NCBI RefSeq assembly: GCF_001579845.1
Contig: NZ_CP007440.1
Coordinates: 2,546,001-2,610,000, forward strand
Reading direction: 5' to 3'
Length of the DNA stretch: 64,000 nucleotides
Origin: Rhodoplanes sp. Z2-YC6860
GTDB lineage: Bacteria; Pseudomonadota; Alphaproteobacteria; Rhizobiales; Xanthobacteraceae
The notes beneath the pieces were generated by a model that was given only the letters and a program-made list of their open reading frames with translations, was not told where the DNA came from and did not search any database. The position numbers were made by a program, and so were the translations under genes. Below are positions 27,373 through 61,422 of the stretch, piece after piece; position 1 is the stretch's first letter; each line of letters opens with the position of its first letter.

Positions 27373-29601
27373 ATGACCCAATATATCGGCACTGCCACCT
27401 CCCGCATCGACGGGATCGCCAAGGTCACCGGCGCCGCCAAATACGCCGCCGACTTCAACGCGCCGGGATTGCTTTACAGCTGGGTCGTCGGCGCGACCAT
27501 CGCCAAGGGCCGGATCACGAGCATCGATCGCAGCGCCGCCATGCGGGTCAAAGGCGTGGTCGACGTGCTGGCGCACGACAACCGTCCGCAGATGCCGGAC
27601 AACGACGAGGCCTATCACGACGACGTGGCGCCGGAAGGCTCGCCGTTCCGGCCGCTCTACGACGACAAGATCATGTTCAACGGCCAGCCGATCGCGCTTG
27701 TGGTCGCGGAGACGTCGGAGGCGGCGCGGTACGCCGCGTCGCTGGTCAAGGTGGAGTACGCGCAGGAGGCCCATGTCACCGACGTGTTCAAGGAGCGCGA
27801 TGCCGCGACGCCGATCAAGATACCGAGCGATCCGGGCGCAGCTGCATTCGCACCGCAAAAGCCGCGCGGCAACGCGGATCAGGCACTCGCGGCTGCAGCC
27901 GTGCGCCAAGAGGCCGAGTATTACGTTCCGAGCGAATATCACAATCCGATGGAGCTTTATGCTTCGACGGCGATCTACGAAGCCGGCGGCAAGCTGACGG
28001 TCTACGACAAGACCCAGGGCGTGCAGAACGTCCAAAGATACCTGTGCGGCGTGTTCGGCTTGAAGCCCGACGACGTGCGCGTGATGGGCGCGTTCATGGG
28101 CGGGGGCTTCGGCTCCGGTCTGCGGCCGCAGTTCCAGGTGCTCCTGGCGGTGCTCGCGGCCCGCGCGTTGAAGCGTTCGGTGCGCGTGATGCTGACGCGG
28201 CCGCAGATGTATGCGCTGGGTTATAGGCCCGCGATGATCCAGAAGGTCGCGCTCGGCGCCAATGCCGGAGGCACGCTCGATGTCATCGCGCACGACGCCG
28301 TCACGACGACCTCGCAGTACGAGGATTTCTACCGGCAGGAGACCGGCTGGTCCGGGCTCCTGTACAAAAGCGCCAACGCGAAATACGCGCACAAGCTCGC
28401 GCACCTCGACATGGCCACGTCGTGCGACATGCGCGCGCCGAGCGCCACGACGGCGCTCTTTGCGCTGGAAAGCGCGATGGACGAACTCGCGATCCGTCTC
28501 AGGCTCGATCCGGTGGAGCTGCGCCTGCGCTGCTATTCGGATCGCGATCAGCACGAAAACAAACCCTTCAGCAGCAAGGCGCTGCGCGAATGCTACCGCC
28601 AGGGCGCCGAGGCGTTCGGCTGGAGCAAGCGCAATCCCGAGCCGCGCTCGATGCGGGAGGGCAAGGACCTCGTCGGCTGGGGCATGGCGACGGGCGTCTG
28701 GGAGGCGCTGCAGGTGCCGATCACGGTGCGCATCGCGCTCGGCGCCAACGGTCATGCCGAGGTCGCCTGCGCGACGTCGGACATCGGCACCGGCACCTAC
28801 ACCATCATGGCGCAGGTCGCGGCCGACATGCTGGGACTGCCGCTCGACAGCATCAGCATCAAGCTTGGCGATTCGAGCCTGCCGCAGTCGCCGGTCGAGG
28901 GCGGGTCATGGATCGCCGCATCGGTGTCGAACGGCATCGCGACCACGGCCGGCGCGATCCGCGACGAGCTGCTGCGTCTCGCCCAGAAAATCCCGAACTC
29001 GCCGCTGGCGAATGCCGCGCCGGACGATGTCACGCTTGCGGACGGCAAGCTCGTGAGCAAGCGCGACGCATCCCGGTCGGTGTCGATCGCCGACGCCATG
29101 CGCCAGGGCGGCGTTGACCGTATCGAACAGGAAAAGACCACCAACCCGACGCAGGATCAGGCGAAGGCGCACAACACGCATTCGGCGATCTTCATCGAGG
29201 TCAAGGTGGACGAAGAGATCGGCGTGGTCCGCGTCACGCGCGCGGTGTCGGCCGTTGCCGGCGGGCGCATCCTCAACACCAAGACCGCGACGAGCCAGAT
29301 CCTGGGCGGCGTGGTGTGGGGCATCGGCATGGCGCTGCACGAGGCGGTCGTGATCGACCACAAGTTCGGCCGCATCATGAATGCCAACATCGCCGAATAT
29401 GTCGTGCCGGTGCACGCCGACATTCACGACATCAAGGTGATCTTTGTCGACGAGCCGGAAGACAGCAATCCGCTTGGCATCAAGGGGCTCGGCGAGATCG
29501 GCATCGTCGGGGTCGCGGCGGCGGTCGCCAACGCGGTTTATCACGCGACCGGTAAGCGCGTGCGCGATCTGCCGATCACGCTGGACAAGGTGACGGCGTA
29601 G
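27373..29601 (+). CDS. Molybdopterin large subunit of the PaoABC-type oxidoreductase
   Basis: This 742-residue catalytic subunit begins with RIDGIAKVTGAAKYAADFNAPG, contains the cofactor-binding MGGGFGSGLRPQFQ motif near residue 242, and ends with IKGLGEIGIVG, which places the active-site glutamate at about residue 708. The length matches PaoC (about 730). The usual products are carboxylates from aldehydes or hydroxylated rings. It completes a three-gene operon. No XdhC- or MocA-like maturation gene is in the window, so the cytosine-dinucleotide cofactor must be inserted by factors encoded elsewhere. Confidence 0.94.
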   Translation: MTQYIGTATSRIDGIAKVTGAAKYAADFNAPGLLYSWVVGATIAKGRITSIDRSAAMRVKGVVDVLAHDNRPQMPDNDEAYHDDVAPEGSPFRPLYDDKIMFNGQPIALVVAETSEAARYAASLVKVEYAQEAHVTDVFKERDAATPIKIPSDPGAAAFAPQKPRGNADQALAAAAVRQEAEYYVPSEYHNPMELYASTAIYEAGGKLTVYDKTQGVQNVQRYLCGVFGLKPDDVRVMGAFMGGGFGSGLRPQFQVLLAVLAARALKRSVRVMLTRPQMYALGYRPAMIQKVALGANAGGTLDVIAHDAVTTTSQYEDFYRQETGWSGLLYKSANAKYAHKLAHLDMATSCDMRAPSATTALFALESAMDELAIRLRLDPVELRLRCYSDRDQHENKPFSSKALRECYRQGAEAFGWSKRNPEPRSMREGKDLVGWGMATGVWEALQVPITVRIALGANGHAEVACATSDIGTGTYTIMAQVAADMLGLPLDSISIKLGDSSLPQSPVEGGSWIAASVSNGIATTAGAIRDELLRLAQKIPNSPLANAAPDDVTLADGKLVSKRDASRSVSIADAMRQGGVDRIEQEKTTNPTQDQAKAHNTHSAIFIEVKVDEEIGVVRVTRAVSAVAGGRILNTKTATSQILGGVVWGIGMALHEAVVIDHKFGRIMNANIAEYVVPVHADIHDIKVIFVDEPEDSNPLGIKGLGEIGIVGVAAAVANAVYHATGKRVRDLPITLDKVTA

Positions 29602-29631: not shown

Positions 29632-30135
29632 TCAGCGCCGGCGTCTCCTTCGCGGGATATCCGGATCGTCAGGTTCGTCGTCTGCGCTCGCCATGGCAGC
29701 CGCGTCGGTGGCGGCGGCCGGGGCGCCGTTGAACATCGCAAAGCTCGCGGTGCGGTCGGCAAGCGACAGCTCGATCTGGCGACGCTCGATCTTGGTCACC
29801 TTCCAGCCGCCGATGTCGTCTCCGACGCGGACGCCGACGATCCTGTCGCCGTTGGCGCGGACCATCGCGCGCGCGCCGCCGGATTCGGACACGATGCCGT
29901 ACAGCGCCACTTGCGGTGGCTGTGGCGGCGGTGCGGGCGGAGGCGGCGGCGCTGCGGCCACCCGAGGCGGTGCGGGCGGCCGCCGCTGGGCCGAGAACAG
30001 CGGTCGTTCGCGCGTCGTCGAGAGACCTTCGAGCGATTGCGCGGCGAGCGGATTGGCCGCCTGTTGCGCGGCCGCGCCGGTGCAGAAAGCGAGCGGCAAC
30101 AAGGCGGCGACGGCGATGATAATGCGCGGGATCAT
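29632..30135 (-). CDS. gspC: GspC/PilP-like type II secretion protein, minimal form
   Basis: This 167-residue protein has an N-terminal export signal (MIPRIIIAVAALLPLAFCTGAAAQQ), a proline-rich linker (near residues 57-75), then a small domain with the HR-type pattern: YGIVSESGGARAMVRANGD, VGVRVGDDIGGWKVTKIE, ELSLADRTASFAMF. The HR domain of GspC contacts the secretin N0 domain. No PDZ domain is present, and the N-terminus looks cleavable rather than a membrane anchor. It is the last gene of the leftward gsp operon and overlaps gspM by four bases. The assignment rests on the HR-like pattern and position; PilP-like is the alternative. The C-terminus ends in six arginines. Confidence 0.68.
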   Translation of the reverse strand: MIPRIIIAVAALLPLAFCTGAAAQQAANPLAAQSLEGLSTTRERPLFSAQRRPPAPPRVAAAPPPPPAPPPQPPQVALYGIVSESGGARAMVRANGDRIVGVRVGDDIGGWKVTKIERRQIELSLADRTASFAMFNGAPAAATDAAAMASADDEPDDPDIPRRRRRR

Positions 30136-30731
30136 GCGGTGCCCTTCCGCCACAGAGCGCGGATGCCCAGAGTCACGCGCAGCACGGGATCCGGCCGCGC
30201 GCTTCCCATGCCGGCGTTCGGCAGCTGCACCGCGACCGAGTCGACGAACACGTAAGGCGTGCCGGTCTCGAGCTGATAGAGCAGCGTCTGCAGCGCGCCG
30301 ATCGTTGTGGTCAGTGTTGCCTGCAGACGGATGGTCTCGGGTGAATCGTCGCGGCTGGTGGGCTGTACGCCGGAGGACACGACCTCGGCATTCTGCGCCG
30401 TGGCAAGCTGCGCGAGATAGGCCTGCAACTCGGCGCCGGCGAGGCCTTGCGTCTGCGTGGTCAGAAACGCGCTGGCCGGCGCCGCGGGATTGCGCACCGG
30501 TCCGCGGCCCTTGGCGCCGCCGCCGACTCGTTTCTCAAGCTGCGCCAGCGCGTCCTGCTTCTCGCCGAGCTCGGCCAGCGCCTCGGAGCGCACGCCCAAC
30601 GACCACGTCACGGCGGTGACGCAAAGGATGACGACCGCAGCCACAATCGAAAGCGCGACGAGCTGTTCGCGATTGAGTCCGGGATCAAACTTCTTGAGGT
30701 CGAACGTCTTGAGATCGAATTTGAGCGACAT
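30132..30731 (-). CDS. gspM: Type II secretion protein GspM
   Basis: This 199-residue inner-membrane platform protein has a short charged N-terminus, one membrane helix (VALSIVAAVVILCVTAVTWSL), a coiled-coil (LAELGEKQDALAQLEKRVG) and a periplasmic ferredoxin-like C-terminal domain. The ATG at 30731 is chosen because it follows the gspL stop almost directly; the longer frame overlaps gspL. An Ala/Gly/Pro segment follows the coiled-coil. It pairs with GspL to connect the ATPase to the pseudopilus. Confidence 0.85.
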   Translation of the reverse strand: MSLKFDLKTFDLKKFDPGLNREQLVALSIVAAVVILCVTAVTWSLGVRSEALAELGEKQDALAQLEKRVGGGAKGRGPVRNPAAPASAFLTTQTQGLAGAELQAYLAQLATAQNAEVVSSGVQPTSRDDSPETIRLQATLTTTIGALQTLLYQLETGTPYVFVDSVAVQLPNAGMGSARPDPVLRVTLGIRALWRKGTA

Positions 30732-30732
30732 G

Positions 30733-31788
30733 TCACTTCCCGGCGAAATTGAGCCGCCGCTCCTGGTTGGCTTCGATGTTGAAGGTGAACAGGCCGGACT
30801 CGGCGGAGCGCGTGGTGGCGGCCGAGAACCGCACATTGGCGAAATGCCCCGACTGCTCCAACGGCGCGATCAGCGCAGGTGCGTCGCTGGTAAGGCCGGT
30901 GATGCGCAGCAGTCCCTTTTCGAGGCGGAAGTCGGTGAGGTATGCGGTGTCGGGCAGCGCGCGCGACAGGCCCTCCAGCGCGAACACCGCCGAATAGGAG
31001 GTCTCCTTGAAAGCCCAGGCGCGCTCCGGCAGCGGCAGCGCGGCGAGCGCCTGCGGCGAGCGTCCGACCTGCAAGAGCCGCTGCAGAGTCCGCGAGCGGG
31101 TCGTGGTCTCGTCGAGATTGCCTGCCATCGAGGTGGCGCTCCACAGCGCCCAGGTGCTGATCGCAGCGCTCAAGACCACCGTCGCGGCGAGCGCGCCGCC
31201 GGCCGCAAAGCGCGCGGTGCGCAGCTGCTGGCCCGAGTCGCTCGCCTCGCGCGACCACAATGGAATGGGCGGCCGTTCCGGTGCCGCGGTTTTGCGCACG
31301 GTGATCTGATCGAGTTGCAGCCCTGCCGCACGAAGCTCGTCGCGCGTGTTCTCGACGGCGCTGCGCGGCGCGACGGAAATCTGCACGTCGAGCGATCCCG
31401 GATCGCTGACATTCGGATGGGCTTCGAAGCCGTAGATCGCGTCCTGCGGCGGCCACGGCGACAGCCGGTCAATCTGGTTGCGCACGATGCCTGAAAGATA
31501 CTCACGGGCCTGTGCCGGGACCTTGATGGTGCGCAGCACGACCTCTTGCTCCGGCATCTCGAACACGACGAAGGCCTGCTTGACGGTTTTCGCCAATTCG
31601 CCCGGAAGGCCCGAGCCGATCGGTGTGATGGCGCCGAGCTTGCCGTCGCGATGGCGCTGCCGCAGCGTAAGACGGCCGTTGTCGCGCATCACCACAATGG
31701 ATTGTCGGGCACGCCACCTCGACCAGCACTCCAAAAGAAGTGCGGCGAGCACATCCAGCCATCGCGTGATCAAAGTTGCGACATTCAT
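30733..31788 (-). CDS. gspL: Type II secretion protein GspL (PilM/PilN-like)
   Basis: This 351-residue platform protein has an N-terminal actin-like cytoplasmic region (VVMRDNGRLTLRQRH to about residue 170), a membrane helix at about 190-215 (FAAGGALAATVVLSAAISTWAL), and a periplasmic ferredoxin-like domain with PilN-type LEGLSRALPDTAYLTDFRLEKGLLRITGLT. It binds GspE and GspM. The layout fits the alphaproteobacterial short GspL forms that mix PilM and PilN features. Confidence 0.87.
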   Translation of the reverse strand: MNVATLITRWLDVLAALLLECWSRWRARQSIVVMRDNGRLTLRQRHRDGKLGAITPIGSGLPGELAKTVKQAFVVFEMPEQEVVLRTIKVPAQAREYLSGIVRNQIDRLSPWPPQDAIYGFEAHPNVSDPGSLDVQISVAPRSAVENTRDELRAAGLQLDQITVRKTAAPERPPIPLWSREASDSGQQLRTARFAAGGALAATVVLSAAISTWALWSATSMAGNLDETTTRSRTLQRLLQVGRSPQALAALPLPERAWAFKETSYSAVFALEGLSRALPDTAYLTDFRLEKGLLRITGLTSDAPALIAPLEQSGHFANVRFSAATTRSAESGLFTFNIEANQERRLNFAGK

Positions 31789-31792
31789 GGGA

Positions 31793-32776
31793 CTACCATT
31801 TGGCCAGAGCCGCGGGCCAGGGATTCCACGCCAGGACGCGATAGGGTTGAGCGTCTTGCGATGACAGAACGATGACAGCCTGTGCCGCGGCCGAATAACC
31901 GTCTGCGACCCGGGCCTGAATCACCACCGATGCGACCTTCTTGCCGTCGGCGATGACGTAAGCCTGGGCACCGCCCAGCATCGAGAGCAGTTGCGACCCG
32001 TCGCCGGACATGTTGCGGCGGGCATCGATGAAATTGGCCACGCTGTCGTCGTTCAGGCCAGGGAGGGCGGCGAGCACCGCGGGCGACGCGCTGAGGGCGT
32101 TGAGCTTCTCGCCGCCGAATACGGTGACATAGGGCGCCGCCGCGGCAACGAGCTCCGGTGTCACGCCGGGCACGTTGAGCAACTGGCGAATGTCGGTGAA
32201 TGGCATCACCTTCGATGAAGCCTTGTCGTTTTTGCCCCGCGGGGTTGTCTGGCTTTGGCCGTTCGTCTGCTGGTTCTGAGCCGTTGCCTGCGGGCTTTGA
32301 CCGGTGGTGGCGGCCGCGTCGCCGGCGTTCTGTGCGGTTGTCGCTGGCGTCTGCGACGCTTGCGGCGGCGCGCCGCCATTCGCAGTCCGCCAGTTGACGA
32401 TGCTGCGCGCAATGCCGTCGGCATTTTCCGCGCGAACGCGGCGCAGCATCGAAGCCAGCACCTCGACCGGCGCCTTGCCGATATCGATCCGGCCGCCCTC
32501 GTCGGTGACGCGCACGCGAATCTGGCCGGTGGAAAGCCGGAACGCCATCTCGCTCTCGAGCAGCGGCCGATCCTCCGGCAGACGAGCGACCACACCGGCG
32601 GCCGTTTCGAGACCTGCCGTGAGCAGCGCGTCGGCGCGCAGGCGATCGCGATCGACGGTCACGATGCCGGCGAACTCGCGGAATGTCACGGACGTGGCCA
32701 TGGCGAGGGCCGACAGCAGCGCGACGGTCCACAACACCGCCACCAGAACGACGCCACGGCGAGGATCGGTTCGCAT
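31793..32776 (-). CDS. gspK: Type II secretion minor pseudopilin GspK
   Basis: This 327-residue pseudopilin caps the pseudopilus tip. The prepilin site is RRG-VVLVAVLW near residues 6-16; as usual in GspK, the +5 glutamate is missing (Ala here). The helical SAM-like region includes DEGGRIDIGKAPVEVLASMLRRV. Residues about 132-189 form an insert rich in Gln, Thr, Asn and Ala, absent from textbook GspK. The start overlaps the gspJ stop by one base (TGATG), so translation is coupled. It lies in the usual J-K-L order. Confidence 0.9.
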   Translation of the reverse strand: MRTDPRRGVVLVAVLWTVALLSALAMATSVTFREFAGIVTVDRDRLRADALLTAGLETAAGVVARLPEDRPLLESEMAFRLSTGQIRVRVTDEGGRIDIGKAPVEVLASMLRRVRAENADGIARSIVNWRTANGGAPPQASQTPATTAQNAGDAAATTGQSPQATAQNQQTNGQSQTTPRGKNDKASSKVMPFTDIRQLLNVPGVTPELVAAAAPYVTVFGGEKLNALSASPAVLAALPGLNDDSVANFIDARRNMSGDGSQLLSMLGGAQAYVIADGKKVASVVIQARVADGYSAAAQAVIVLSSQDAQPYRVLAWNPWPAALAKW

Positions 32777-33540
32777 CAGTCGGCGCCCTCGTCGTGGCTG
32801 GCTGCTGTCTTGTTGTCCGGCTTCCGCTCTGGCTTGGCGTCAGGTTTGGATTCGTCGTCCTTGCAGGTCGGACCGCTGAGAGCGCAGTTCATCTTCAGAT
32901 CGGAGCGCAGCCGGAATTCGGCGCGCGGCAGGATGTCGATGCCGCTGCTGCGATCGCGGATGACGAGCCGGACGGATTGCGGGATGCTGTCCTGGTCGGA
33001 CCAGCTCGAAGTCCAGTTCAGCCGCCCGTCATGTCCGGCCTTGCTGAATGAGAAGGACATGTCGTAGTTGCCTTCGATCAGCATGACCGGGTCCCGGAGC
33101 GGGATATCGCCGAAGCGATCGCTCGGTCCGCGCCACGGCGCGCGACGGCGAACGAGCCGCGTCACGTCGCCGGCGGGCTCGATCGAGAGGCTGACGATCT
33201 CTTCGCCACGCGGGCCGGCCGCGATGCCCGCGCCGCTGACGAAGGCGACGCTGCCGCCGGAGGCCGTGAAAGCGACGCCGCTGCTGGCGTCGGTCGCTCT
33301 TTGTACGAAACGCGCCGCGGCGAAATCGCCGGCGACGCGTTCGACGGCGAGCACCAGGCGGTCGGCGGTGGTGACGGTGCGCGTGCCACGGTCGAAACCC
33401 CAGACCACATTGCGGATGAGGCCGGCCATTGCGACGAAGATCACGGCCGTGATGGCGAGCGCCGCCAGCGTTTCCACCAGCGTGAAGCCGCCGCAGCGCA
33501 GCTGCAGACGGTATTTGCCTGGATGAGGTGTTGTTGTCAT
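32776..33540 (-). CDS. gspJ: Type II secretion minor pseudopilin GspJ
   Basis: This 254-residue pseudopilin has the prepilin cleavage site CGG-FTLVETLAAL, with cleavage after Gly18, Phe19 at +1 and Glu23 at +5. A hydrophobic helix follows to about residue 45. The body includes the GspJ pattern GNYDMSFSFSKAGHDGRLNWTSSW. The C-terminus is Lys/Asp/Glu-rich (KDDESKPDAKPERKPDNK). It forms the tip complex with GspI and GspK. It overlaps the gspI stop by four bases. Confidence 0.92.
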   Translation of the reverse strand: MTTTPHPGKYRLQLRCGGFTLVETLAALAITAVIFVAMAGLIRNVVWGFDRGTRTVTTADRLVLAVERVAGDFAAARFVQRATDASSGVAFTASGGSVAFVSGAGIAAGPRGEEIVSLSIEPAGDVTRLVRRRAPWRGPSDRFGDIPLRDPVMLIEGNYDMSFSFSKAGHDGRLNWTSSWSDQDSIPQSVRLVIRDRSSGIDILPRAEFRLRSDLKMNCALSGPTCKDDESKPDAKPERKPDNKTAASHDEGAD

Positions 33541-33986
33541 TGCTGGCGCTTCAACAATCTGACGGTTTCAGCGCGCACCGCCTGGCCAGGAGCCCACGAA
33601 ACGCTCGCGGCAATACGGAACGGCGTCCATTGCGGCGCAGAGCCGTCGGAGCCGCCAGGGGGCTTGTTGCTCTTCGGAGCCGTATCGATCAGCGTTACGA
33701 CGCCAAGATCAAATGGACGCGCCTCGACGCTCCAGTGCAGGCCATCGGTCTCGCCGTCGCGAAAGGTCAGCATGCGCGTACGGTCCGGCGCCTCGTCGAG
33801 CAGCGAGCGCAGCAGCACCTGCGCGGCGATGCGGCCGCGCGGATTGTCGAGAAGGCGCCGCGACTGAAACATCATCGGCACGATCACCGACGCGAAGGCG
33901 AGCAGAAGCGCGAGCGCCACCAGCGCTTCGATCAGCGTGAAGCCGGATCGCGCGCTGCGCGCGCTATAGTTGACGGACCACGACAC
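33537..33986 (-). CDS. gspI: Type II secretion minor pseudopilin GspI
   Basis: This 149-residue pseudopilin has a 15-residue basic leader ending in SARSG-FTLIEALVAL, with Glu at +5, and a hydrophobic helix. The C-terminal part includes DGLHWSVEARPFDLGVV, a GspI-like beta-strand region. The gene overlaps gspH by 23 bases and gspJ by four. The length is about 25 residues more than common GspI proteins, because of the leader and a PKSNKPPGGSDGSAP loop. Confidence 0.9.
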   Translation of the reverse strand: MSWSVNYSARSARSGFTLIEALVALALLLAFASVIVPMMFQSRRLLDNPRGRIAAQVLLRSLLDEAPDRTRMLTFRDGETDGLHWSVEARPFDLGVVTLIDTAPKSNKPPGGSDGSAPQWTPFRIAASVSWAPGQAVRAETVRLLKRQQ

Positions 33987-34407
33987 TGCCGGTGTACCAG
34001 TTGACGCTCACTTCGTAAGTGGCCTGCTCGCGCGACAGCCGCAGCACAACGCCGGTCGACGCGCCGTCCGGCTGGAAGCGGACCAACGCAAGTCGTCCCG
34101 AGCGTGTTGCGTCGCTGCCGAGCACATCGACCACCACATCGGTTGGAATGCGGACCTGGCCGCCGCTGTCACCGAACAGGAGACGTTCGCGGCCGTCGAG
34201 CGACACCTGCCGGGAGCTTGCCGTCAGAATCGCGCCGAGCCGTTCGCGGCGCATCAGCGCCGCGGTCTGTAGCGAGACCGCATGAAGTTGCGCGCGTCCG
34301 GTGCCGCGCGAGGTCGTCACCGCAAGCGCCGAGACCAGGGCGATGATCAGCATCACCGCCATGACCTCAAGAAGAGTAAAGCCGGCCTGAGCTTTAACGG
34401 ACGACAT
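33964..34407 (-). CDS. gspH: Type II secretion minor pseudopilin GspH
   Basis: This 147-residue pseudopilin has the leader MSSVKAQAG and the site G-FTLLEVMAVMLIIALVSALAV, with Glu at +5. The C-terminal half is a beta-rich GspH/FimT-type domain (LDGRERLLFGDSGGQVRIPTD). The ATG at 34407 gives a short typical leader and overlaps gspG by 14 bases; an ATG at 34437 would add ten residues. Confidence 0.9.
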   Translation of the reverse strand: MSSVKAQAGFTLLEVMAVMLIIALVSALAVTTSRGTGRAQLHAVSLQTAALMRRERLGAILTASSRQVSLDGRERLLFGDSGGQVRIPTDVVVDVLGSDATRSGRLALVRFQPDGASTGVVLRLSREQATYEVSVNWYTGSVVVRQL

Positions 34408-34861
34408 TCGAGATGTCAGCGGCGTTGCCGTTGCCACCCTCGCGTCCGTCGGAGCCGAGCGATGTGATCTCGTAGGGCGGCGTCTGCTCGCCGGCCACGC
34501 GATATTGATAGGCGTGGCCCCATGGGTCGTTGGGCACGCGGCCGCCTTTCACATAAGGCCCGTTCCAGACTTCGATGCCCGTGGGCCGCGTCGCCAATGC
34601 CTCGAGCCCTTCCGAAGACGTGGGGTAGCGGCCGGCGTCGATGTAGAACAGGTCGAGCGACGAACTGAAGCTCTCGATTTGGAGCTTGGCGGTCTTGACG
34701 CGCGAGTCGCCGAGATAAGCGAGCACGCGCGGCCCCACGAGACCCAAGATGAGGCTGATGATCGTGAGCACGACAAGCATTTCAACGAGGGTGTAGCCGT
34801 CGCTGGCTGCGGACCAGATGCGGCTGCGCTTGGCGATGTTGTACTGGCGCTGGCTGTTCAT
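34394..34861 (-). CDS. gspG: Type II secretion major pseudopilin GspG
   Basis: This 155-residue major pseudopilin forms the secretion piston. The prepilin site reads SDG-YTLVEMLVVLTIISLILGLVGPRV: Glu27 at +5 is present, but the +1 residue is Tyr instead of the usual Phe or Met. The rest has the GspG hallmarks SRVKTAKLQIESF, LDLFYIDAGRYPTSSEGLEAL and GPYVKGGRVPNDPWGHAYQYR, and the calcium-site region EITSLGSDGREGGNGNAADI. The leader is long (22 residues). It overlaps gspF by four bases. Confidence 0.95.
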   Translation of the reverse strand: MNSQRQYNIAKRSRIWSAASDGYTLVEMLVVLTIISLILGLVGPRVLAYLGDSRVKTAKLQIESFSSSLDLFYIDAGRYPTSSEGLEALATRPTGIEVWNGPYVKGGRVPNDPWGHAYQYRVAGEQTPPYEITSLGSDGREGGNGNAADISNVVR

Positions 34862-36066
34862 AGGGCAAGCTCCGTGATGCTCAGAAGCGCGCTCATGATC
34901 GACACGATCAGAGCGCCGATGACGACGCTGACAAGAATGATGGTCGCGGGTCCGATCGCCCCCATCAGCCGGTCGAGGCCTATGCCCAGCCGGTGTTCGT
35001 AAAACTGCGCGGCGTGCCGCGTGATCGCCGGAAGATCACCGGTCTCGTCGCCGACCCGAAGCATGCGGGCGGCGAGCGGCGGCAAGAGATCGGATTCGGA
35101 TAGCGCCTCGGCGAAGCGGCGGCCGTTGCGCACCTGATCGTGGACACGGTCCACTTCGGCGACGTAACGCGGTTCGGTGACGACGTCGCGCAGCATCTTC
35201 AGCGCGGCGGGCAGCGCGACACCGTTCTCGACCAGGAGCCCAAGCGTGCTGATGAGTCGCGCGGTGCGGCGGTCGCGCATCGGGCCGGAGATGCCTGGGA
35301 GTGTCGAAAGCATTGCGACCATCCGGCCGCGGTTCTCGCGCCGGCTGAAGATCAGCCAAAGCACCAGGACCCCGATGATGATGGAGCCAAGGAACAGGTT
35401 GAGATTGGCGGTGAGCCAGGTCGAAGCGTTCAGCACAAAGGCTGCGCCGGCATTGAGCTTGCCGCCGAGATCGCGGAACACCGGCTCGAACTGCGGCACC
35501 ACATAGAGCAGAAAGAAGAACAGGATCAGCACCGCAGAGCCGACGAGGAACAACGGATAGCGGATCGCCGAATTGATGCGATCGCCAAGGAGTTCCTTGC
35601 GTGTCCGATCGGCAACGATGGCTTGCAGCACGGCGTCAAGCTTTCCGGAGGCTTCGCCCGCCCTTACCATCGCAACATAAATGGGTTCGATGATGGTCGG
35701 ATGACGTTCCAGCGCTTCGGCGAAGCCGTCGCCCGCTGCGATCGAGGAGCGCAGCCCGGCGGAAAATTTTGCCACGGTTTTGCTGCCGTTATCGTCGGCA
35801 AGAGTTTGCAGCGCTGCTTCCAGCGTCAGTCCGGAACCGACCAGCAAAGCGAGCTGGCGAAGGAAGATGGTAATATCGCGCGCGTTCGCCTTTTTGACGT
35901 TCCAGCCGCTCGATCCGAGAATGCCTTTGGAGGCAGTTTCGGTCTCGATCGGCAGATGGCCGAGATATTCGATCCGGCGCAGAACCTCTTCGCGCGACGG
36001 CGCTTCGACCTCGCCAATGACGACTTCGCCGGCCCGGGTGAGTGCGCGATAGCGGAAATGCGGCAT
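34858..36066 (-). CDS. gspF: Type II secretion inner-membrane platform protein GspF
   Basis: This 402-residue polytopic platform protein starts MPHFRYRALTRAGEVVIGE and has two repeated cytoplasmic GspF domains (LLVGSGLTLEAALQTL and LLVENGVALPAALKML), each followed by membrane segments. The length is standard. It transmits GspE action to the pseudopilus. It starts four bases after gspE and overlaps gspG. Confidence 0.95.
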   Translation of the reverse strand: MPHFRYRALTRAGEVVIGEVEAPSREEVLRRIEYLGHLPIETETASKGILGSSGWNVKKANARDITIFLRQLALLVGSGLTLEAALQTLADDNGSKTVAKFSAGLRSSIAAGDGFAEALERHPTIIEPIYVAMVRAGEASGKLDAVLQAIVADRTRKELLGDRINSAIRYPLFLVGSAVLILFFFLLYVVPQFEPVFRDLGGKLNAGAAFVLNASTWLTANLNLFLGSIIIGVLVLWLIFSRRENRGRMVAMLSTLPGISGPMRDRRTARLISTLGLLVENGVALPAALKMLRDVVTEPRYVAEVDRVHDQVRNGRRFAEALSESDLLPPLAARMLRVGDETGDLPAITRHAAQFYEHRLGIGLDRLMGAIGPATIILVSVVIGALIVSIMSALLSITELAL

Positions 36067-36070
36067 CGCC

Positions 36071-37744
36071 TTACAGGCTCATGGTCACGCGGAACACTTC
36101 GTCCAATGTCGTCATACCGGCGCGGCACTTGGCGACGCCGTCCTCGGTCATGGTGGTCATGCCTTCTCGGCGTGCGACCGCTTCCAAGTCGGCGGCGTCG
36201 ATTTTCGGACCGATCGCCCGGCGAACCTCCGGGCCGATCTCCATCACCTCGAACACGCCTTTGCGTCCGCGGAAACCGATGCCCCCGCAATAGTCGCAGC
36301 CTTTGGGCTGGTACACGGTCTCGCCTGCTTTGAAGCCCAGCGTTTCGTAACGGTAATCGGCTGCAATCTCTTTGACTGTCAGCTCATGCCGCACGCGGCA
36401 ATGCTCGCACAGCACGCGCACCAGACGCTGGCCGATGATGGCGCGCACCGAAGAGGCCAGGAGGAAACTCTCAAGGCCCATATCGATCATCCGGGGGATC
36501 GCTCCTGCGGCGGTGTTGGTGTGCAGCGTGGTCAGCACCAGATGGCCGGTCAAAGCGGCGTGCACGCCGATATGCGCGGTCTCGGCGTCACGCATCTCGC
36601 CGACCATGATGACGTCGGGGTCCTGGCGCAGGAACGAGCGCAGCGCCGATGCGAAGGTCAGCCCGATGCTCGGATGCACCTGGGTCTGGTTGATGCCGGG
36701 AATTTGATATTCGACCGGATCTTCGATGGTGAGGATCTTGCGGCTGGTCTGGTTGATCACCGCGAGCGAGGCGGCGAGCGTCGTGGTCTTGCCGGAGCCG
36801 GTCGGGCCGGTGACGATCAGCATACCGAACGGCGCGTCGAGCGTGTGGCGCAGCTTGGTTTCGTCCGCCGCCGACAGCCCCACCTGATTGATGGCGACGA
36901 AACCCGAGCCCTTGCGCAGAAGCCGGACTACCGCGCTCTCGCCGCCCATGGTCGGCATGGTGGCAACGCGCAGGTCGATCTCGGCGCCGCCCACCACGAT
37001 CTTGGCGCGGCCGTCCTGCGGCATGCGCCGCTCGGTGATGTTGAGCCCCGACATGATCTTGAGGCGCGACAGGATACCTTTCGCCATGGCGATCGGGGGC
37101 GAGGCCACCGGTTTCAGCATGCCGTCGACGCGGATGCGAACCTGCAGCGTGTTGCCGAACGGCTCGATGTGCAGATCGGTACCGCGCTGGTCGACCGCCA
37201 TTCGGAGGAGGTCGTCGAGCGCCCGCACCACGGGCGCGCCGCGCGCCAGATCGCGCAGATCGTCGATGTCGTCGTCGCCGCGCGGCGCGTTGGCTTCCGC
37301 CGGGGCAGCGGTTTGCTCCGCGCCGAGCGAGGTCGCGAGCGCTGCGTCGATGTCCTCGGCAGTGGCAACCGCGAGCGCCACCGGCTGTTGCAGCGCGAGC
37401 TCGGTAGCCCGGAGGGTTTCGTTGTCCACGGGCGTAGCAACCGCGAGAGCAAGCGTTCCGGCCGCATCCTCATAGGGAAACAAGCGTCCCTCGCGGAGGA
37501 ACCGGGCCGAGAGCTTGCTGCCAGCGAAGCGTCCACCGACCAGTTCGCCGCGATTCACGCGCCTGCAGCGATAAAAAGCTGCGAGCTCATCGGCAAAGGC
37601 CGATTGGGTAAGCTTTGTCAGGCCAACCCAGTCAATATCGTTCTGCGCGTCGAAACGACGCGAATTGCTTCCGCCATCAAGCGCCTGTTGCTCACGCAGC
37701 ACGCCTTGACGAGCGAGATGGTCGATGAACTCGCTATGCAACAT
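36071..37744 (-). CDS. gspE: Type II secretion ATPase GspE
   Basis: This 557-residue AAA-like secretion ATPase has an N-terminal N1E/MshEN-like domain, Walker A VTGPTGSGKTTT near residues 308-319, an Asp box (LTIEDPVEYQIPGINQTQV), Walker B region DPDVIMVGEMRDAETAH, and His box LTGHLVLTTLHTN. The zinc-binding CxxC pair is intact (CEHC and CDYC), as in true GspE. It drives pseudopilus assembly. It is the first gene of the leftward operon and faces the phosphatase gene across 307 bases. Confidence 0.96.
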   Translation of the reverse strand: MLHSEFIDHLARQGVLREQQALDGGSNSRRFDAQNDIDWVGLTKLTQSAFADELAAFYRCRRVNRGELVGGRFAGSKLSARFLREGRLFPYEDAAGTLALAVATPVDNETLRATELALQQPVALAVATAEDIDAALATSLGAEQTAAPAEANAPRGDDDIDDLRDLARGAPVVRALDDLLRMAVDQRGTDLHIEPFGNTLQVRIRVDGMLKPVASPPIAMAKGILSRLKIMSGLNITERRMPQDGRAKIVVGGAEIDLRVATMPTMGGESAVVRLLRKGSGFVAINQVGLSAADETKLRHTLDAPFGMLIVTGPTGSGKTTTLAASLAVINQTSRKILTIEDPVEYQIPGINQTQVHPSIGLTFASALRSFLRQDPDVIMVGEMRDAETAHIGVHAALTGHLVLTTLHTNTAAGAIPRMIDMGLESFLLASSVRAIIGQRLVRVLCEHCRVRHELTVKEIAADYRYETLGFKAGETVYQPKGCDYCGGIGFRGRKGVFEVMEIGPEVRRAIGPKIDAADLEAVARREGMTTMTEDGVAKCRAGMTTLDEVFRVTMSL

Positions 37745-38051
37745 CTGACGCTGTCGGGTTACGCCCCAAATTCATAAGGCAGTTTTGCGACAGTCTTTTG
37801 AAGGTGCGGTCAGCAATTCACGCCCACGTGCTGGCGCATCCTGTTACCGGCTTACACTTTGATCACACATTCGATTTTCTTTCGGCATGTGGTGCGTGCC
37901 GAATCCGAAGCGTCACAAATCTCCATCAAAGTTTCGCTGCGCGCCGCGTACACGTAACTGTCATGCGGCCGCAATACGGTCCGGCCCGGTGGCTGTTTGG
38001 GGGCGAAGTCTGCTTATCGACTGATTTCGCGTAGAGTTGCAGGCCAGTGGA
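37745..38051. promoter_or_regulatory. Divergent promoter region between gspE and the phosphatase gene
   Basis: This 307-base gene-free region must hold the promoters for both arms of the secretion locus. It is less GC-rich than its surroundings around 37855-37885. Half-sites CTGTTA (37841), CTTACA (37851) and ATCACA (37862) lie 10 and 11 bases apart and loosely resemble the CTGTCA repeats of a Pho box, and a CTGTCAT occurs at about 37959. No clear sigma-70 pair was found. Confidence 0.5.
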
Positions 38052-40034
38052 ATGTACCTGACGCGCGCTGTTCTCCGCGTAGTAGGCACGCTTGTCTTTA
38101 TGGTGGCGCTGCTTGCGGCGCCATGCGCGCATGCGGCCTGCGAGCTGGGACCGGCCGGCGCGATCCGGCACGTGGTTCACATCCAGCTCGATAGCGTGCA
38201 GTTTCAGCGGGATAATCCCAATGTCCCGTCCGACCTCGAGCAGATGCCGCACCTGCTCGGCTTTTTGCGCGACAACGGTACGCTCAGCACCAATCACCAC
38301 GTGATGCCGGCGGCGCAGACCGCGACGAATTTCCTCACCATCCTGACCGGTGTCTACGGCGACCGGATGGGGATGCCGATCGGGGATAGCTACAAATATT
38401 ACAAGAGCGATGGCAGCATCGGAACGGCGAGTTCGTTCGCTTATTGGACCGGCACGGGCGGCGATGGTGCGCCGCAGATGCTCGCCGACACGGGCAAGAC
38501 CTTTCCGGCACCATGGGTGCCGCTGACGCGGGCGGGATGCGATGTCGGCTCGTTCGCGGTGCCCAATATCGGTTTGGACGGCGTCGCGGTTCACTGCGCC
38601 CGGGGCAGCGCGATTTGCGGCGGCACTGGCGCGGTTGCCGACGTGTTGCCGGATGAGCCCGGCGGTTATCCGGCGTTTGCGGCCTTGTTCGGCCATTCTG
38701 CGGTTCAGCGCACGATCGCGGCGGGCCGCTCGATTCTTGATCTCGATGGCAATGCCATTCGCTTCCCCGACAGCGGCAGCGCCGCGACTGTTCTCAATCC
38801 ATCGGCGTCGCAATCGCTGGGTTATGCAGCAGCCTTGCTGGAGGCCGGCGTGCCCGTGGTTTCGGTTTTTATCGCCGATCCGCATGAGCAGCGCCGCAGC
38901 GGCTCACGCGCGATAGGCCCCGGTGAGGCGGGCTACGTAGCGCAGCTTGCGGCTTACGACGCAGCCTTTGCGACGTTTTTCCGCAGGCTCGCCAGCCACG
39001 GCACAGACCCGACCAACACCTTATTTGTCGTGACGGCCGTCAACAGCAGCCATTTCGTTGGCGGTCCGCCCGAGCCTGCGAGTTGCGACGGCCTCAGCGT
39101 GCCTTGCGGCTATGGCCGGGTTGGCGAGATCGAGGTGGCGCTTGATCGAATGCTCGCGACGCAACGCCGCAATGTCACGACTTTCGATATTCATTCCGAT
39201 GGAGCGCCGGCCTTTTACATCCAGGGCAATCCCGGTGCGACCGATCCTGTCGCACGCACGCTGGCCCAGGATGCGGGCAGGCTCACCGCGGTCAATCCGA
39301 TCACCGGAAAGACCGACACGCTGGTCGCGTTCCTCGCCGACCGCGCGGAGCTGAAGCTCCTGCACATGGTCACGGCGAGTCCTGCGCGCACGCCGAGTTT
39401 CGTCATGTTCGGCGATGCCGATTACTATTATCGCAACGCCGGGCGGATCACCGACTGTGCGCTGCCACCGGCCTGTGTACGGCAGAACTCCGGATTTGCC
39501 TGGAATCGCGGTGGCATCCAGCCGCCGGTCGCGGCGTCCTGGCTTGGAATGGCCGGTCCCGGTGTGCGGCGGCTCGGCATCGTCCACGACGTGTTCTCGG
39601 ATCACGCCGATATCCGGCCCACCACCATGGCGCTGCTGGGCCTGAAAGACAGTTACGTCCACGACGGCCGCGTGCTGGTGGAATTCCTCGACAATCGCGT
39701 TATCGCCGCGGCCGCACCGCAGCGTCTGCCGTTCATCAGATTGGCTCGCGCCTACAAGCAGCTCAACGCGCCGTCCGGCTCGCTCAGCCGCAACAGCCTC
39801 GTCTGGGCGACGCGGGCCATCAAGGCAGGCGACGCCACCTATGCCGATTATCTTTCGAAGATCGAGCCTGTCACCGCGTTTCGCGACGCTCTGGCTCGCG
39901 ACATCAAGCTGCAGTTGGCGGAACCGGTGTTTGCCGGCCGTCCGCTCGATCCGCAGAACGCGGACGTTCTTTTGGCAAGAGCCGGCGCGCTGCTCGACGA
40001 TGTCGAAGAGTTCGCAGGCGAAGCGATGCGCTGA
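38052..40034 (+). CDS. Secreted alkaline-phosphatase-superfamily protein, likely T2SS client
   Basis: This 660-residue protein has a Sec signal peptide (MYLTRAVLRVVGTLVFMVALLAAPCAHA, cut before ACELG). The N-terminal part VVHIQLDSVQF, NPNVPSDLEQMPHLLGFLRD and TATNFLTILTGVYGDRMG follows the pattern of phosphodiesterase/alkaline-phosphatase-like enzymes: a metal Asp, then a Thr-containing nucleophile loop. A second metal-site-like region is VVTAVNSSHFVGG, where an expected Asp-His is Ser-Ser-His. The ATG at 38052 is preferred to a TTG at 38037. It sits between gspE and gspD, 26 bases before the secretin start, so it is a strong candidate for secretion through this system. The enzymatic reaction is not proven. 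Confidence 0.75.
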   Translation: MYLTRAVLRVVGTLVFMVALLAAPCAHAACELGPAGAIRHVVHIQLDSVQFQRDNPNVPSDLEQMPHLLGFLRDNGTLSTNHHVMPAAQTATNFLTILTGVYGDRMGMPIGDSYKYYKSDGSIGTASSFAYWTGTGGDGAPQMLADTGKTFPAPWVPLTRAGCDVGSFAVPNIGLDGVAVHCARGSAICGGTGAVADVLPDEPGGYPAFAALFGHSAVQRTIAAGRSILDLDGNAIRFPDSGSAATVLNPSASQSLGYAAALLEAGVPVVSVFIADPHEQRRSGSRAIGPGEAGYVAQLAAYDAAFATFFRRLASHGTDPTNTLFVVTAVNSSHFVGGPPEPASCDGLSVPCGYGRVGEIEVALDRMLATQRRNVTTFDIHSDGAPAFYIQGNPGATDPVARTLAQDAGRLTAVNPITGKTDTLVAFLADRAELKLLHMVTASPARTPSFVMFGDADYYYRNAGRITDCALPPACVRQNSGFAWNRGGIQPPVAASWLGMAGPGVRRLGIVHDVFSDHADIRPTTMALLGLKDSYVHDGRVLVEFLDNRVIAAAAPQRLPFIRLARAYKQLNAPSGSLSRNSLVWATRAIKAGDATYADYLSKIEPVTAFRDALARDIKLQLAEPVFAGRPLDPQNADVLLARAGALLDDVEEFAGEAMR

Positions 40035-40060
40035 GCGTCACGCCGTTGGAGAGTATCGAG

Positions 40061-42514
40061 ATGAAGATCGCACATGAGCTTTCAAGCGGACAGGCGCAAA
40101 GGCCTGCGCGCAACATGGCGCGCGCTGTATCGGCTGGCTTGGTTGTGGCGCTTCACTTGGTGCTCGTGAGCTGCTCCAGCATGGATAATGTCGTCGATTT
40201 GCCGAAGCGGAACGGCGTGACCGACCCGATTCGTGATGCCGATCTTCGCGCCCGTGCACCGGAACGCACGGATTCGCGATTCAACAGTGTCGTGCAGAAA
40301 TATCTCCGACCTTTGATCTATCCCGCCGCCGACACCGATCCGCCGGCCGCGCAGACGCCCGGCGCGGATCCTTCGGATTCCGTAAACGCCGGCGGTGCCG
40401 CGATCGGCGGCACGCCTGCTCCGGGAGTGACGAACACCACCGCCGGTATCGAAATCAATTTCGAAAACGCCAACATCCAGACCGTCGCCAAGACCCTGAT
40501 TGCCGACACGCTCGGGCTGAATTTTGCGGTCGACACCCGCGTGCAAGGGACCGTGACCCTCGCGTCGGCCGCGCCGGTCCCACGCAAGGATTTGCTCGCG
40601 GTGTTCGAGAGCGTATTGCGCATGTCCAATGCCGGTCTGGTGCGCGACAAAAATCTCATCCGCATCGTGCCGCTGCCTGAGACCGCCGGCTCCGGCAAGG
40701 TGACGATGCTGGGCTCGGGTGAGGCGGGCTTCGGGGTGACCATCGTGCCGCTGCGTTATGTGTCGGCCACGACTGTCTCCAAGACCGCGGAAAATTTCAT
40801 GGCGCGGCCCGGCGCGATCCGCGTCGATCAGGCGCGAAACGTGATCCTGGTGCAGGGCACCTCAGCGGAGCGCCAGACCGCGATCGATATGATCTCGACC
40901 TTCGACGTGGAATGGCTGCACGATCAGTCGGTCGGCATTTATCCGTTGAAATCGACCTCGGCCGAGACGCTGATCAAGGAGCTGGAGCGGGTGTTCGACT
41001 CCGGCGAGAACGGACTTGGGCAGGGCGCCATCAAGTTCCAGCCGATCTCACGCATGAACGCCGTGCTGGCCGTGGCCCGCAGCCCCAAGATGATCGAGCG
41101 GGTGACCCAATGGGTCCAACGGCTCGACCGCTCCGACACCGGCGGGACAACGGTGCGTGTCTATCACCTGAAAAACGGCAGCGCACAGCGCCTCGCCAAG
41201 GTTTTGAACGATATCTTCGTCGGCCGCGGTGGCGCGGGCACATCTGGCGACACCGCTGCGAGCCAGATCGCGCCGGGCCAGAATGCCAGCCAGTCTCGGC
41301 TCGACTCACTCAACACCGGCTCGAGCTTCCAGCAGCAGGGCAGCAGCGGAAGCAGCTCGACGACGACCACCACGAGTTCGAGCAGCAGCAACAGCGGCGG
41401 TTTGAGCCGCCCGACCCAAGGGGGAGACTTCGATTCATTTGGCGGCGACAAGGACGGCGGTCCAGATGGTGGCGGTGGGGGTGGCGGCGCGCTGCCGCGC
41501 GGCGTATTCACCAATGTGCGGATCACCGCCAACCTCGCGGACAATTCACTGGTGGTCTATTCGACCCAGGAAGACTATCGCGTTATCGAGCGGTCGATCC
41601 GCGAGCTCGACCGGCCACAGATGCAGGTAGCGATCGACGCGACGATCGCCGAGGTCACGCTGACCGACAATTTCCAATTCGGCATTCAAAGCTTCCTCAC
41701 CAGCAAGAATGTCGGTCTGGGCACCAACAAGGGATCGAGCCTCTACACGCCGAGCGCCACCGCGGGCGGTTCCACCACGAGCACCGATCCGACCACGGGC
41801 CTGCAAACGGTGGTACAGCAGGCGTTCCTGCAGCGCGTGTTGCCGGGCTACAATCTGCTGCTCGGATCGGAGGCGCAGCCGACCGTCATCCTGAATGCGC
41901 TGTCGAAGCTGACCGACGTGAAGGTGCTTTCGGCGCCGTCGCTGGTGGTGATGGACAATCAGCCGGCGCTGTTGCAAGTTGGCAACGAAATCCCGCTGTC
42001 GACAGGCTCGGCCACGGTGCTGACCGGCTCGAACACGATCGTCAACACCATCGAGCGGCGCAACATCGGCGTCATCTTGAAAGTGTGGCCGCGGGTGCGC
42101 GCCAACGGCGCGATCCAGCTCGAGATCGAGCAGGAAATCTCCAACGTTGCCAATCCGAACGATCCTACCAATGCTCTTACGCCCACGCTGACGCAGCGCC
42201 GCGTCCGCTCGACCATCGCTATCCAGAGCGGGCAGACCGTGCTGCTCGGAGGCCTGATCTCCGAGCAGACCAGCGATACCTCGACAGGGCTGCCCGGGCT
42301 GCGCGAAATCAAATATCTCGGCGATCTGCTTGGCAACACCGCCCGCGACAAGCAGCGTCAGGAAATCATCATCTTCGTCCGGCCACGATTGATCCGTAAC
42401 TCGGTCGATGCGGAGAGCGTGGCCGAGGAGTTCCGCGACCGCCTGGAAACCATGCGCAGCACACGGGCGATCGTCGGGGGCACGGCGGCGGTGCTGCCAC
42501 CCAAAACAAGATGA
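40061..42514 (+). CDS. gspD: Type II secretion secretin GspD, lipoprotein-type
   Basis: This 817-residue outer-membrane secretin has N0 (IEINFENANIQTVAKTLI), N1-N3 repeats (VTIVPLRYVSATTVSKTAENFM; VGIYPLKSTSAETLIKELERVF; TTVRVYHLKNGSAQRLAKVL) and the secretin barrel (VKVLSAPSLVVMDNQPALLQVG and SGQTVLLGGLIS). The N3 loop holds a Ser/Thr/Asn and Gly-rich low-complexity stretch. Near the N-terminus the sequence LHLVLVSCSS has the form of a lipobox, with Ser at +2, which favours the outer membrane. An in-frame ATG at 40115 would give a clean 20-residue lipoprotein signal. No GspS pilotin is nearby. Confidence 0.96.
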   Translation: MKIAHELSSGQAQRPARNMARAVSAGLVVALHLVLVSCSSMDNVVDLPKRNGVTDPIRDADLRARAPERTDSRFNSVVQKYLRPLIYPAADTDPPAAQTPGADPSDSVNAGGAAIGGTPAPGVTNTTAGIEINFENANIQTVAKTLIADTLGLNFAVDTRVQGTVTLASAAPVPRKDLLAVFESVLRMSNAGLVRDKNLIRIVPLPETAGSGKVTMLGSGEAGFGVTIVPLRYVSATTVSKTAENFMARPGAIRVDQARNVILVQGTSAERQTAIDMISTFDVEWLHDQSVGIYPLKSTSAETLIKELERVFDSGENGLGQGAIKFQPISRMNAVLAVARSPKMIERVTQWVQRLDRSDTGGTTVRVYHLKNGSAQRLAKVLNDIFVGRGGAGTSGDTAASQIAPGQNASQSRLDSLNTGSSFQQQGSSGSSSTTTTTSSSSSNSGGLSRPTQGGDFDSFGGDKDGGPDGGGGGGGALPRGVFTNVRITANLADNSLVVYSTQEDYRVIERSIRELDRPQMQVAIDATIAEVTLTDNFQFGIQSFLTSKNVGLGTNKGSSLYTPSATAGGSTTSTDPTTGLQTVVQQAFLQRVLPGYNLLLGSEAQPTVILNALSKLTDVKVLSAPSLVVMDNQPALLQVGNEIPLSTGSATVLTGSNTIVNTIERRNIGVILKVWPRVRANGAIQLEIEQEISNVANPNDPTNALTPTLTQRRVRSTIAIQSGQTVLLGGLISEQTSDTSTGLPGLREIKYLGDLLGNTARDKQRQEIIIFVRPRLIRNSVDAESVAEEFRDRLETMRSTRAIVGGTAAVLPPKTR

Positions 42515-42609
42515 CGAGCGGAGACGAGGTCCGAACTGCGCAGGAACGACGATGAGGTGGTGCGCTGACCGGGATCGACAACAGCGAAAGCGCCTGGCCT
42601 GCGATCGAT

Positions 42610-43155
42610 TTGCGTCCCGATTTGCGCATTCTGCTCGCGGGTTCCGCCGTGGTTGCGCTGGTGTCCGTGGCGAGCCTGCCGTTGTCGCTGGCGTTGGCTT
42701 CGATTGCGCTCGGCGCGCTGATGATCGCGGGCGCGGACATCGACGCGCGTGCCTATCTGCTGCCCGACTTCGTGACGCTCGGTGGGTTCGTTTGCGGTGT
42801 GCTCGTGCAATTCGCCCTCGATCCCTTCAGCCCGACGGAGGCCGCGGGATTGGCATTGGCGCGGGGGGCCGGGACCGCGCTGGTGCTGGCTCTGGTGCGG
42901 TGGGGCTATGCCTGGAGCCGCGGGCGGGAAGGCATCGGCCTTGGCGACGTCAAGCTTGCGGCCGCGATCGGAGCCTGGCTGCCGGTCGAAGCGATTCCGC
43001 TTTGCTTTCTGCTGGCGACCGGCGCAGCCTTTGTCGCCGTGCTGTTCGCGCGATTTCGCGGCGAAAGCCTCGACCGGGCGACGCGGATTCCGTTCGGCGC
43101 ATTTCTGTGCCCATCGCTGTGGCTGATCTTCTTCTTCTGTGCGCTGGTGGAGTAG
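42610..43155 (+). CDS. gspO: Short prepilin peptidase (A24 family) lacking the methylase domain
   Basis: This integral-membrane peptidase of about 181 residues cleaves the Gsp prepilins. Both catalytic aspartates are present: Asp in MIAGADIDARAYLLPD and Asp in GIGLGDVKLAAAIG. The N-terminal methyltransferase/zinc domain of GspO/PilD is missing, so it resembles CpaA/TadV-size enzymes. The start is uncertain: a TTG at 42610 is the only standard start in the frame, but a good GAGGTGG site lies upstream of a CTG at 42565, which would add 15 residues (the frame is open from 42556). It follows gspD on the same strand. Confidence 0.85.
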   Translation: MRPDLRILLAGSAVVALVSVASLPLSLALASIALGALMIAGADIDARAYLLPDFVTLGGFVCGVLVQFALDPFSPTEAAGLALARGAGTALVLALVRWGYAWSRGREGIGLGDVKLAAAIGAWLPVEAIPLCFLLATGAAFVAVLFARFRGESLDRATRIPFGAFLCPSLWLIFFFCALVE

Positions 43156-61413: not shown

Positions 61414-61422
61414 TGCTTCCGT

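Follow-up and report, generated by a model that had tools for sequence, protein, structure and literature searches.

Secretins are usually described together with a pilotin, and the client of the Hxc type II secretion system (T2SS) of Pseudomonas aeruginosa is the DING-type alkaline phosphatase LapA. HxcQ, the Hxc secretin, is presented in passages of PMC3542185, and again in part of PMC3521999, as a lipoprotein that reaches the outer membrane without a pilotin. Sections of PMC6617341 already give both HxcQ and the XpsD secretin of Xanthomonas a lipoprotein signal with a lipobox, which makes the idea of a liposecretin less novel. T2SS genes occur in many alphaproteobacteria, Bradyrhizobium included, and the Caulobacter system is associated with phosphate starvation (both from passages of PMC2996285). 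A review (PMC10128026) proposes that the mitochondrial ancestor, itself alphaproteobacterial, had a T2SS, so the way in which alphaproteobacteria target the secretion pore bears on the mitochondrial-ancestor question. The terms pilotin, lipoprotein and alphaproteobacteria are all absent from the main text of PMC6668835, and titles and abstract openings revealed no account that treats liposecretins as typical of a lineage or places them in the T2SSs of alphaproteobacteria, a survey that left subscription literature mostly uncovered and is no proof of novelty.

Here we analyse a T2SS in a 64,000-nucleotide stretch of DNA, hereafter called the window (positions 2546001–2610000 of an 8.19-Mb, single-contig host genome). 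An earlier note on this DNA had read the locus as an alphaproteobacterial parallel of Hxc, with a lipoprotein secretin, no pilotin and a phosphatase as client. We consider it likely that the locus encodes a T2SS of the Xps and alphaproteobacterial lineage in which GspD is lipidated, carried by the Lol pathway and self-anchored, with no need of a PulS/OutS or AspS pilotin, and in which the exported neighbour is the candidate cargo. The interest lies beyond the single locus, in a lineage-wide lipobox pattern: a large lineage with its own lipid signal alters what is to be expected where a genome shows no pilotin gene.

Gene content and architecture of the locus

Profile searches with Pfam and NCBIfam models revealed a near-complete T2SS at 29632–43155, laid out in two divergent arms. 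The minus arm comprises ten genes, gspE, F, G, H, I, J, K, L and M, then a small PilP/GspC-like gene. The plus arm encodes an exported 665-aa protein, then gspD, then an A24 prepilin peptidase. The features are as follows.

29632–30153, minus: small GspC/PilP-like gene, 173 aa (PF04351 16.1 bits, NF041515 36.1 bits, neither reaching its cut-off)
30132–30731, minus: gspM, XpsM type (PF10741 75.5 bits; NF040576 XpsM 113.1 bits, above the cut-off of 60)
30733–31788, minus: gspL-like gene with a PilN domain (PF05137 48.6 bits, above cut-off)
31793–32776, minus: gspK (PF21687 26.8 bits, barely above the cut-off of 26.2; NF037980 53.4, below 130)
32776–33540, minus: gspJ, from N-methylation motif and position (TIGR01711 20.6 bits, below cut-off)
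33537–33986, minus: gspI, from N-methylation motif and position (family matches below cut-off)
33964–34437, minus: gspH, XpsH-like (NF047827 63.2 bits, below the cut-off of 160; N-methylation motif)
34394–34861, minus: gspG, major pseudopilin (TIGR01710 132.4 bits, above the cut-off of 88.85)
34858–36066, minus: gspF (TIGR02120 264 bits, below the cut-off of 424)
36071–37744, minus: gspE ATPase (TIGR02533 543.8 bits, below the cut-off of 630.25)
37745–38036: divergent intergenic region, with CTGTCAT at 37958–37964
38037–40034, plus: exported phosphodiesterase-like protein, candidate client (PF01663 E 0.2, below cut-off; Sec-type leader by eye)
40061–42514, plus: gspD secretin with lipobox, alternative start at 40115 (TIGR02517 446 bits, above 351.35; tree)
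40163–40174, plus: lipobox LVSC, Cys codon 40172–40174, Ser at +2 and +3 (sequence; aligned Cys in relatives)
42610–43155, plus: A24 prepilin peptidase, 181 aa (PF01478 57.3 bits, above cut-off)

The T2SS core is present: GspD, GspG and the PF01478 peptidase score above their cut-offs, and GspE and GspF score strongly yet below theirs. GspD carries N0, Secretin_N and Secretin domains. Against the Xps-specific models, XpsM exceeds its cut-off, while XpsH and XpsF (224 against 650) stay below. The assignments of gspI and gspJ draw mainly on gene order and the leader motif, and no PDZ domain appeared among the Pfam matches of the small GspC/PilP-like gene. The earlier note's account of two divergent arms holding the core genes, gspD and a prepilin peptidase is borne out for a near-complete set, its GspC-like member being recognised by weak matches. 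The system is real and ordinary-looking, and its secretin should work like HxcQ and XpsD.

Several other features of the host DNA were seen alongside. Besides the window gspD, the genome has three more secretin genes, whose open frames are 504–549 aa long. A24 is the sole domain detected in the prepilin peptidase, and directly after that gene lies another (43209–43871), whose product has a leader and weakly resembles ClpP/NfeD. Elsewhere in the window are two molybdopterin xanthine-dehydrogenase-like large subunits (356–2908 and 27373–29601) and a DUF2126 amidoligase/transglutaminase gene adjoining a circularly permuted ATP-grasp/Alpha-E gene (58087–63945).

The GspD lipobox in the window and in relatives

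The leader of the window GspD, ARAVSAGLVVALHLVLVSC, is followed by SSM, so that the lipobox reads LVLVSC before SSM. Two start codons are available, and both yield the identical Cys. ATG 40115 gives a 19-residue leader that passes a PROSITE-type lipoprotein rule; ATG 40061 gives a 37-residue leader and has GGAGAG seven bases upstream. The better ribosome-binding site thus belongs to the start whose leader is long, which speaks against a lipid anchor. From the Cys to N0 there are 92 residues, and 39 residues follow the secretin domain.

The lipobox is not peculiar to the window gene. Among the 297 genomes of our order sample, 48 encode a GspD above cut-off. We read GspD from 55 other places above cut-off and from one just below, leaving out three lower, nearly full-length ones; 54 of these 56 have a lipobox, the exceptions being L025 and the odd L022. 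Our named relatives, which include Bradyrhizobium, Rhodopseudomonas, Xanthobacter, Mesorhizobium, Hyphomicrobium and Inquilinus, are a sample of near relatives. Four of the best 80 named loci listed have no usable gspD frame, and 74 of the other 76 carry a lipobox. A stricter rule, applied to the named relatives among the best 80 listed together with the window and two Methylosinus plasmids, gave 73 of 79; only one of its six misses (L214) clearly lacks a suitable Cys.

Across all 248 GspD genes, lipoboxes number 153, a count obtained with rules of our own that were adjusted after inspection of the data. Four genes of one family (L046, L047, L053 and L059), whose leaders we judged Sec type, had passed the first rule and were excluded by demanding at least 40 residues between Cys and N0. 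With the PROSITE-type rule there is agreement in 134 of 155 cases (the 153 plus two assigned by eye), and it also accepts 5 of the 93 others. The phylum sample among these genes, made up of 30 best-scoring ones, 53 picked by class or family and 30 lower-scoring ones, gives no estimate of prevalence. In E. coli, an Asp at position +2 keeps a lipoprotein in the inner membrane; none of the 153 lipobox rows has one, and the window has Ser there. The tail past the secretin domain also differs, with a median of 35 residues in lipobox rows against 75 in the others (248 genes).

In nearly all relatives examined, the Cys occupies the same aligned site while the flanking sequence varies. A lipobox arising by chance is unlikely given this conservation, and the LVSC followed by Ser-Ser that the earlier note had pointed out at the GspD N-terminus is confirmed. 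We find highly improbable the view that signal peptidase I processes GspD and that its Cys is there by accident. L025 and L214, which have no lipobox although both fall within the lipobox group, are points in favour of such a view; a position shared so widely despite varied flanks speaks against it. The window secretin is very probably a lipoprotein, judging by its leader and its relatives, and the lipid-anchor signal seems to be a general trait of the lineage and not an isolated copy of the Pseudomonas Hxc system.

GspD phylogeny and the pilotin question

We built a GspD tree from the core running from N0 to the secretin domain, leader excluded, with a midpoint root and no outgroup. Rows at least 60% identical to a kept row were thinned, leaving 113 (L106 was thinned out, and L264 was too short). 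The tree has two groups, divided by a branch with an SH-aLRT of 100. Of 64 rows in the first, 62 have a lipobox (60 by rule; L211 and L262 by eye), and 47 of the 49 rows in the second have none. An earlier 107-row tree gave the same split (42/43 and 63/64). L214 and L025, rows of the lipobox group without a lipobox, represent possible losses.

The window GspD falls in the 64-row group together with the XpsD-type L105, and its nearest row, at 61% over 571 columns, comes from a Methylosinus plasmid. The name XpsD-type for L105 comes from its operon, where XpsM scores 164.7 bits against a cut-off of 60 (L227), no record being named XpsD; in its relative L106, the operon includes XpsH at 217.6 bits against 160 (L228). 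L037, which falls in the 49-row group, is called HxcQ-like by inference rather than from a record name, as it combines a lipobox with a T2SS locus that has FecR- and FecA-like neighbours, which we take to be a trait of the hxc locus.

Similarity scores give a comparable picture. Alphaproteobacterial GspDs are nearest to the window GspD (588 bits for the order relative L016), and the best match outside them is XpsD-type (L105, 296 bits over 678 columns). BLAST against L037 gives 44 bits in one direction, covering the N-domains only, and E 3e-32 in reverse, where the XpsD-type gene of L228 reaches 2e-78. We rejected the 44 bits as a measure of distance, since BLAST skipped the secretin domain in that direction. 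Ordinary Sec-type GspDs (L041 and L047) reach 171 bits. A PDB sequence search with GspD returned 27 general secretin and GspD matches.

These results bear on whether the locus is a close relative of Pseudomonas Hxc, the two forming one liposecretin family, spread vertically or horizontally, with a phosphatase client. The HxcQ-like and window secretins do share a lipobox and a long linker between Cys and N0 (77 and 92 residues), and in an AU test on a 52-row subset, placing L037 with the liposecretins is not rejected (p 0.196, lnL 12.4 lower). Such kinship is nevertheless quite unlikely in our estimation, as L037 is a weaker match than the XpsD-type genes, Sec-type GspDs also score 171 bits, and in both trees L037 sits within a mostly Sec-leader group (a 17-row set in the 107-row tree and a 10-row set in the 113-row tree) with an SH-aLRT of 100. 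In the tree that the earlier note had put forward as a check, the HxcQ-like row does not group with the window GspD, subject to the AU result. What survives of the proposed Hxc parallel is a lipobox secretin with no recognised pilotin; the scores, the tree and the XpsM model argue against a specifically Hxc kinship. Score, tree and subunit models (XpsM above its cut-off, an XpsH-like match below) place the window T2SS with the Xps-type and alphaproteobacterial systems, almost all of whose secretins carry the lipobox in our sample, rather than with Hxc.

A broader scheme can be put forward tentatively, with the balance slightly against it: proteobacterial T2SS secretins would divide, at the midpoint root of their tree, into two lineages, one lipid-anchored and comprising the alphaproteobacterial and Xps-type secretins, the other with Sec leaders, in which pilotins arose late and locally; the Hxc lipid would have been gained separately. 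If this is true, lipid self-anchoring would be the standard means of outer-membrane targeting in half the family and no oddity of Hxc.

The absence of a pilotin, which the earlier note had reported for the vicinity, extends to the whole 8.19-Mb genome for the two pilotin Pfam families: neither PF09691 nor PF16549 has a match at E≤10, a search whose reach does not take in unrelated pilotins such as TPR proteins. The same two families score above cut-off in E. coli, our positive control. Across 80 control genomes, PF09691 matches 3 and PF16549 matches 2, one of the latter below cut-off. All five matches lie within the 38 genomes picked for a Sec-type GspD, and the other 42 have none. Since 33 of those 38 likewise have neither family, pilotin absence is weak evidence, and we rejected it as proof of self-piloting.

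The same scarcity, with PF09691 in 3 and PF16549 in 2 of 80 T2SS genomes, means that a helper could escape both families. The anchor could then be real and yet merely stabilise the pore, with targeting dependent on an unrecognised helper such as a TPR/Sel1 lipoprotein. In the Bradyrhizobium locus L173, a Sel1-repeat gene does separate gspD from the phosphodiesterase-like gene, and PA3611 might bind lipoprotein secretins according to a passage of PMC3542185. Another passage there, citing Viarre 2009, has HxcQ reaching the outer membrane without a pilotin, and the window GspD is short in the tail region to which pilotins bind in PulD; we regard a required helper as unlikely. For a lipobox secretin with no recognised pilotin, self-piloting appears to be the best reading.

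The exported neighbour and comparison with known systems

The exported protein has its Met codon at 38052 and a leader ending in APCAHA, followed by AC. The single Pfam match of the window protein is the sub-threshold one to PF01663 (E 0.2); relatives L160 and L173 match the same family at 2.5e-3 and 2.9e-4, both below cut-off. NCBIfam gave no match, and a PDB sequence search gave none at E≤1. An AlphaFold2 model from 3 rows has a mean pLDDT of 36.3 and is unusable for fold. The window copy has AVNSSHF in the place of the PDENDHF shared by three relatives, a change of D-H to S-H. PDENDHF is presumably the metal site of the alkaline phosphatase superfamily, and if it is, the window copy may work less well or differently.

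This protein is rare. The window is alone in having it among 199 genomes of the order and is joined by one genome, G195, among 398 of the phylum; the plasmid collection has none, and the best 80 named loci listed have two, both Bradyrhizobium (L160 and L173). In all four copies seen, the gene adjoins gspD or lies within about 1 kb of it, a linkage that is partly by construction for L160 and L173, which were gathered via gspD, and free of that bias for the genome-wide finds (the window and G195). In G195 it starts about 950 bases past the gspD match, and in L160 and L173 the two genes are separated by an open frame. The neighbour is best described as a rare phosphodiesterase-like exported protein, for which the label phosphatase would be a guess. 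Of the phosphatase client that the earlier note had proposed, the part that stands is a gene for an exported protein lying between gspE and gspD; the label itself is weak, given the PF01663 E-value and the changed motif residue.

The region between gspE and gspD contains a recurrent heptamer, CTGTCAT. It is present in 22 of the 65 loci, in 29 copies, whereas 40 shuffles gave 1.75 on average and never more than 5; the shared descent of closely related loci inflates this enrichment. The window has one copy, between gspE and the exported-protein gene. In a Bradyrhizobium subgroup, two conserved outward-facing blocks contain the heptamer (L160, L173 and L231 are among the loci with it). With PhoB considered as a candidate regulator, 7 of the 65 loci have paired half-sites scoring at least 11/14, compared with 0.9 on average and 3 at most in shuffles, and none of the 65 has a full Pho box between gspE and gspD, the best being 12/14. 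Searched in four genomes, longer motifs recovered the site at the T2SS of G195 and otherwise three scattered ones, no more than a backward control; the window's own site was unmatched, and no regulon was seen in the four. A perfect Pho-box-like direct repeat, CTGTCATCGTTCTGTCAT, lies on the minus strand at 31861–31878, in the 3' end of gspK and upstream of gspL; within coding sequence it may be chance.

Turning to mechanism, we infer lipidation, Lol transport, self-piloting and a cargo role from the gene content, the conserved lipobox, the phylogenetic group, the short tail and the lack of a match to two pilotin families. GspD would be synthesised with a signal-peptidase-II leader and lipidated on the Cys after LVS. 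The Lol pathway would then carry it to the outer membrane, where its own lipid would hold it via the linker of about 92 residues ahead of N0. With its short C-terminal tail, it would not need a PulS/OutS or AspS pilotin. The pseudopilus, powered by GspE and GspF, would drive periplasmic cargo through the pore, and the most likely local cargo would be the product of the exported-protein gene that lies between gspE and gspD.

How does this system compare with those described? The Pul/Out GspDs share the N0, Secretin_N and secretin domains, but have a Sec leader and a pilotin-binding C-terminal S-domain (passages of PMC3542185) in place of the lipobox and short tail of the window. Hxc resembles the window in its lipobox secretin and the lack of a recognised pilotin, and its phosphatase client may be set beside the phosphodiesterase-like neighbour; it differs in that the HxcQ-like L037, named by inference, lies in the other tree group and is a weaker match. 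Xps comes closer. The xps gene order, seen in part in L228, shares with the window the EFGHIJKLM series and a small GspC-like gene; XpsM exceeds its cut-off, and there is an XpsH-like subunit. The secretins agree in lipobox, short tail and tree group, although GspD identity is 27–32%. In Xps, gspD stands at the operon end, whereas in the window it diverges from gspE, with the phosphodiesterase-like gene between them.

The T2SSs nearest to that of the window are on two plasmids of one Methylosinus strain, pMSC49a and pMSC49c (L225 and L226), which have TPR, substrate-binding and haemagglutinin-like genes close by and, on pMSC49a, a sigma factor gene adjoining gspD. The plasmid gspD is about 60% identical to the window gspD over the 76% matched. 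In these plasmids and in Bradyrhizobium, gspE–gspM run divergently from a gspD with a Cys leader, as they do in the window.
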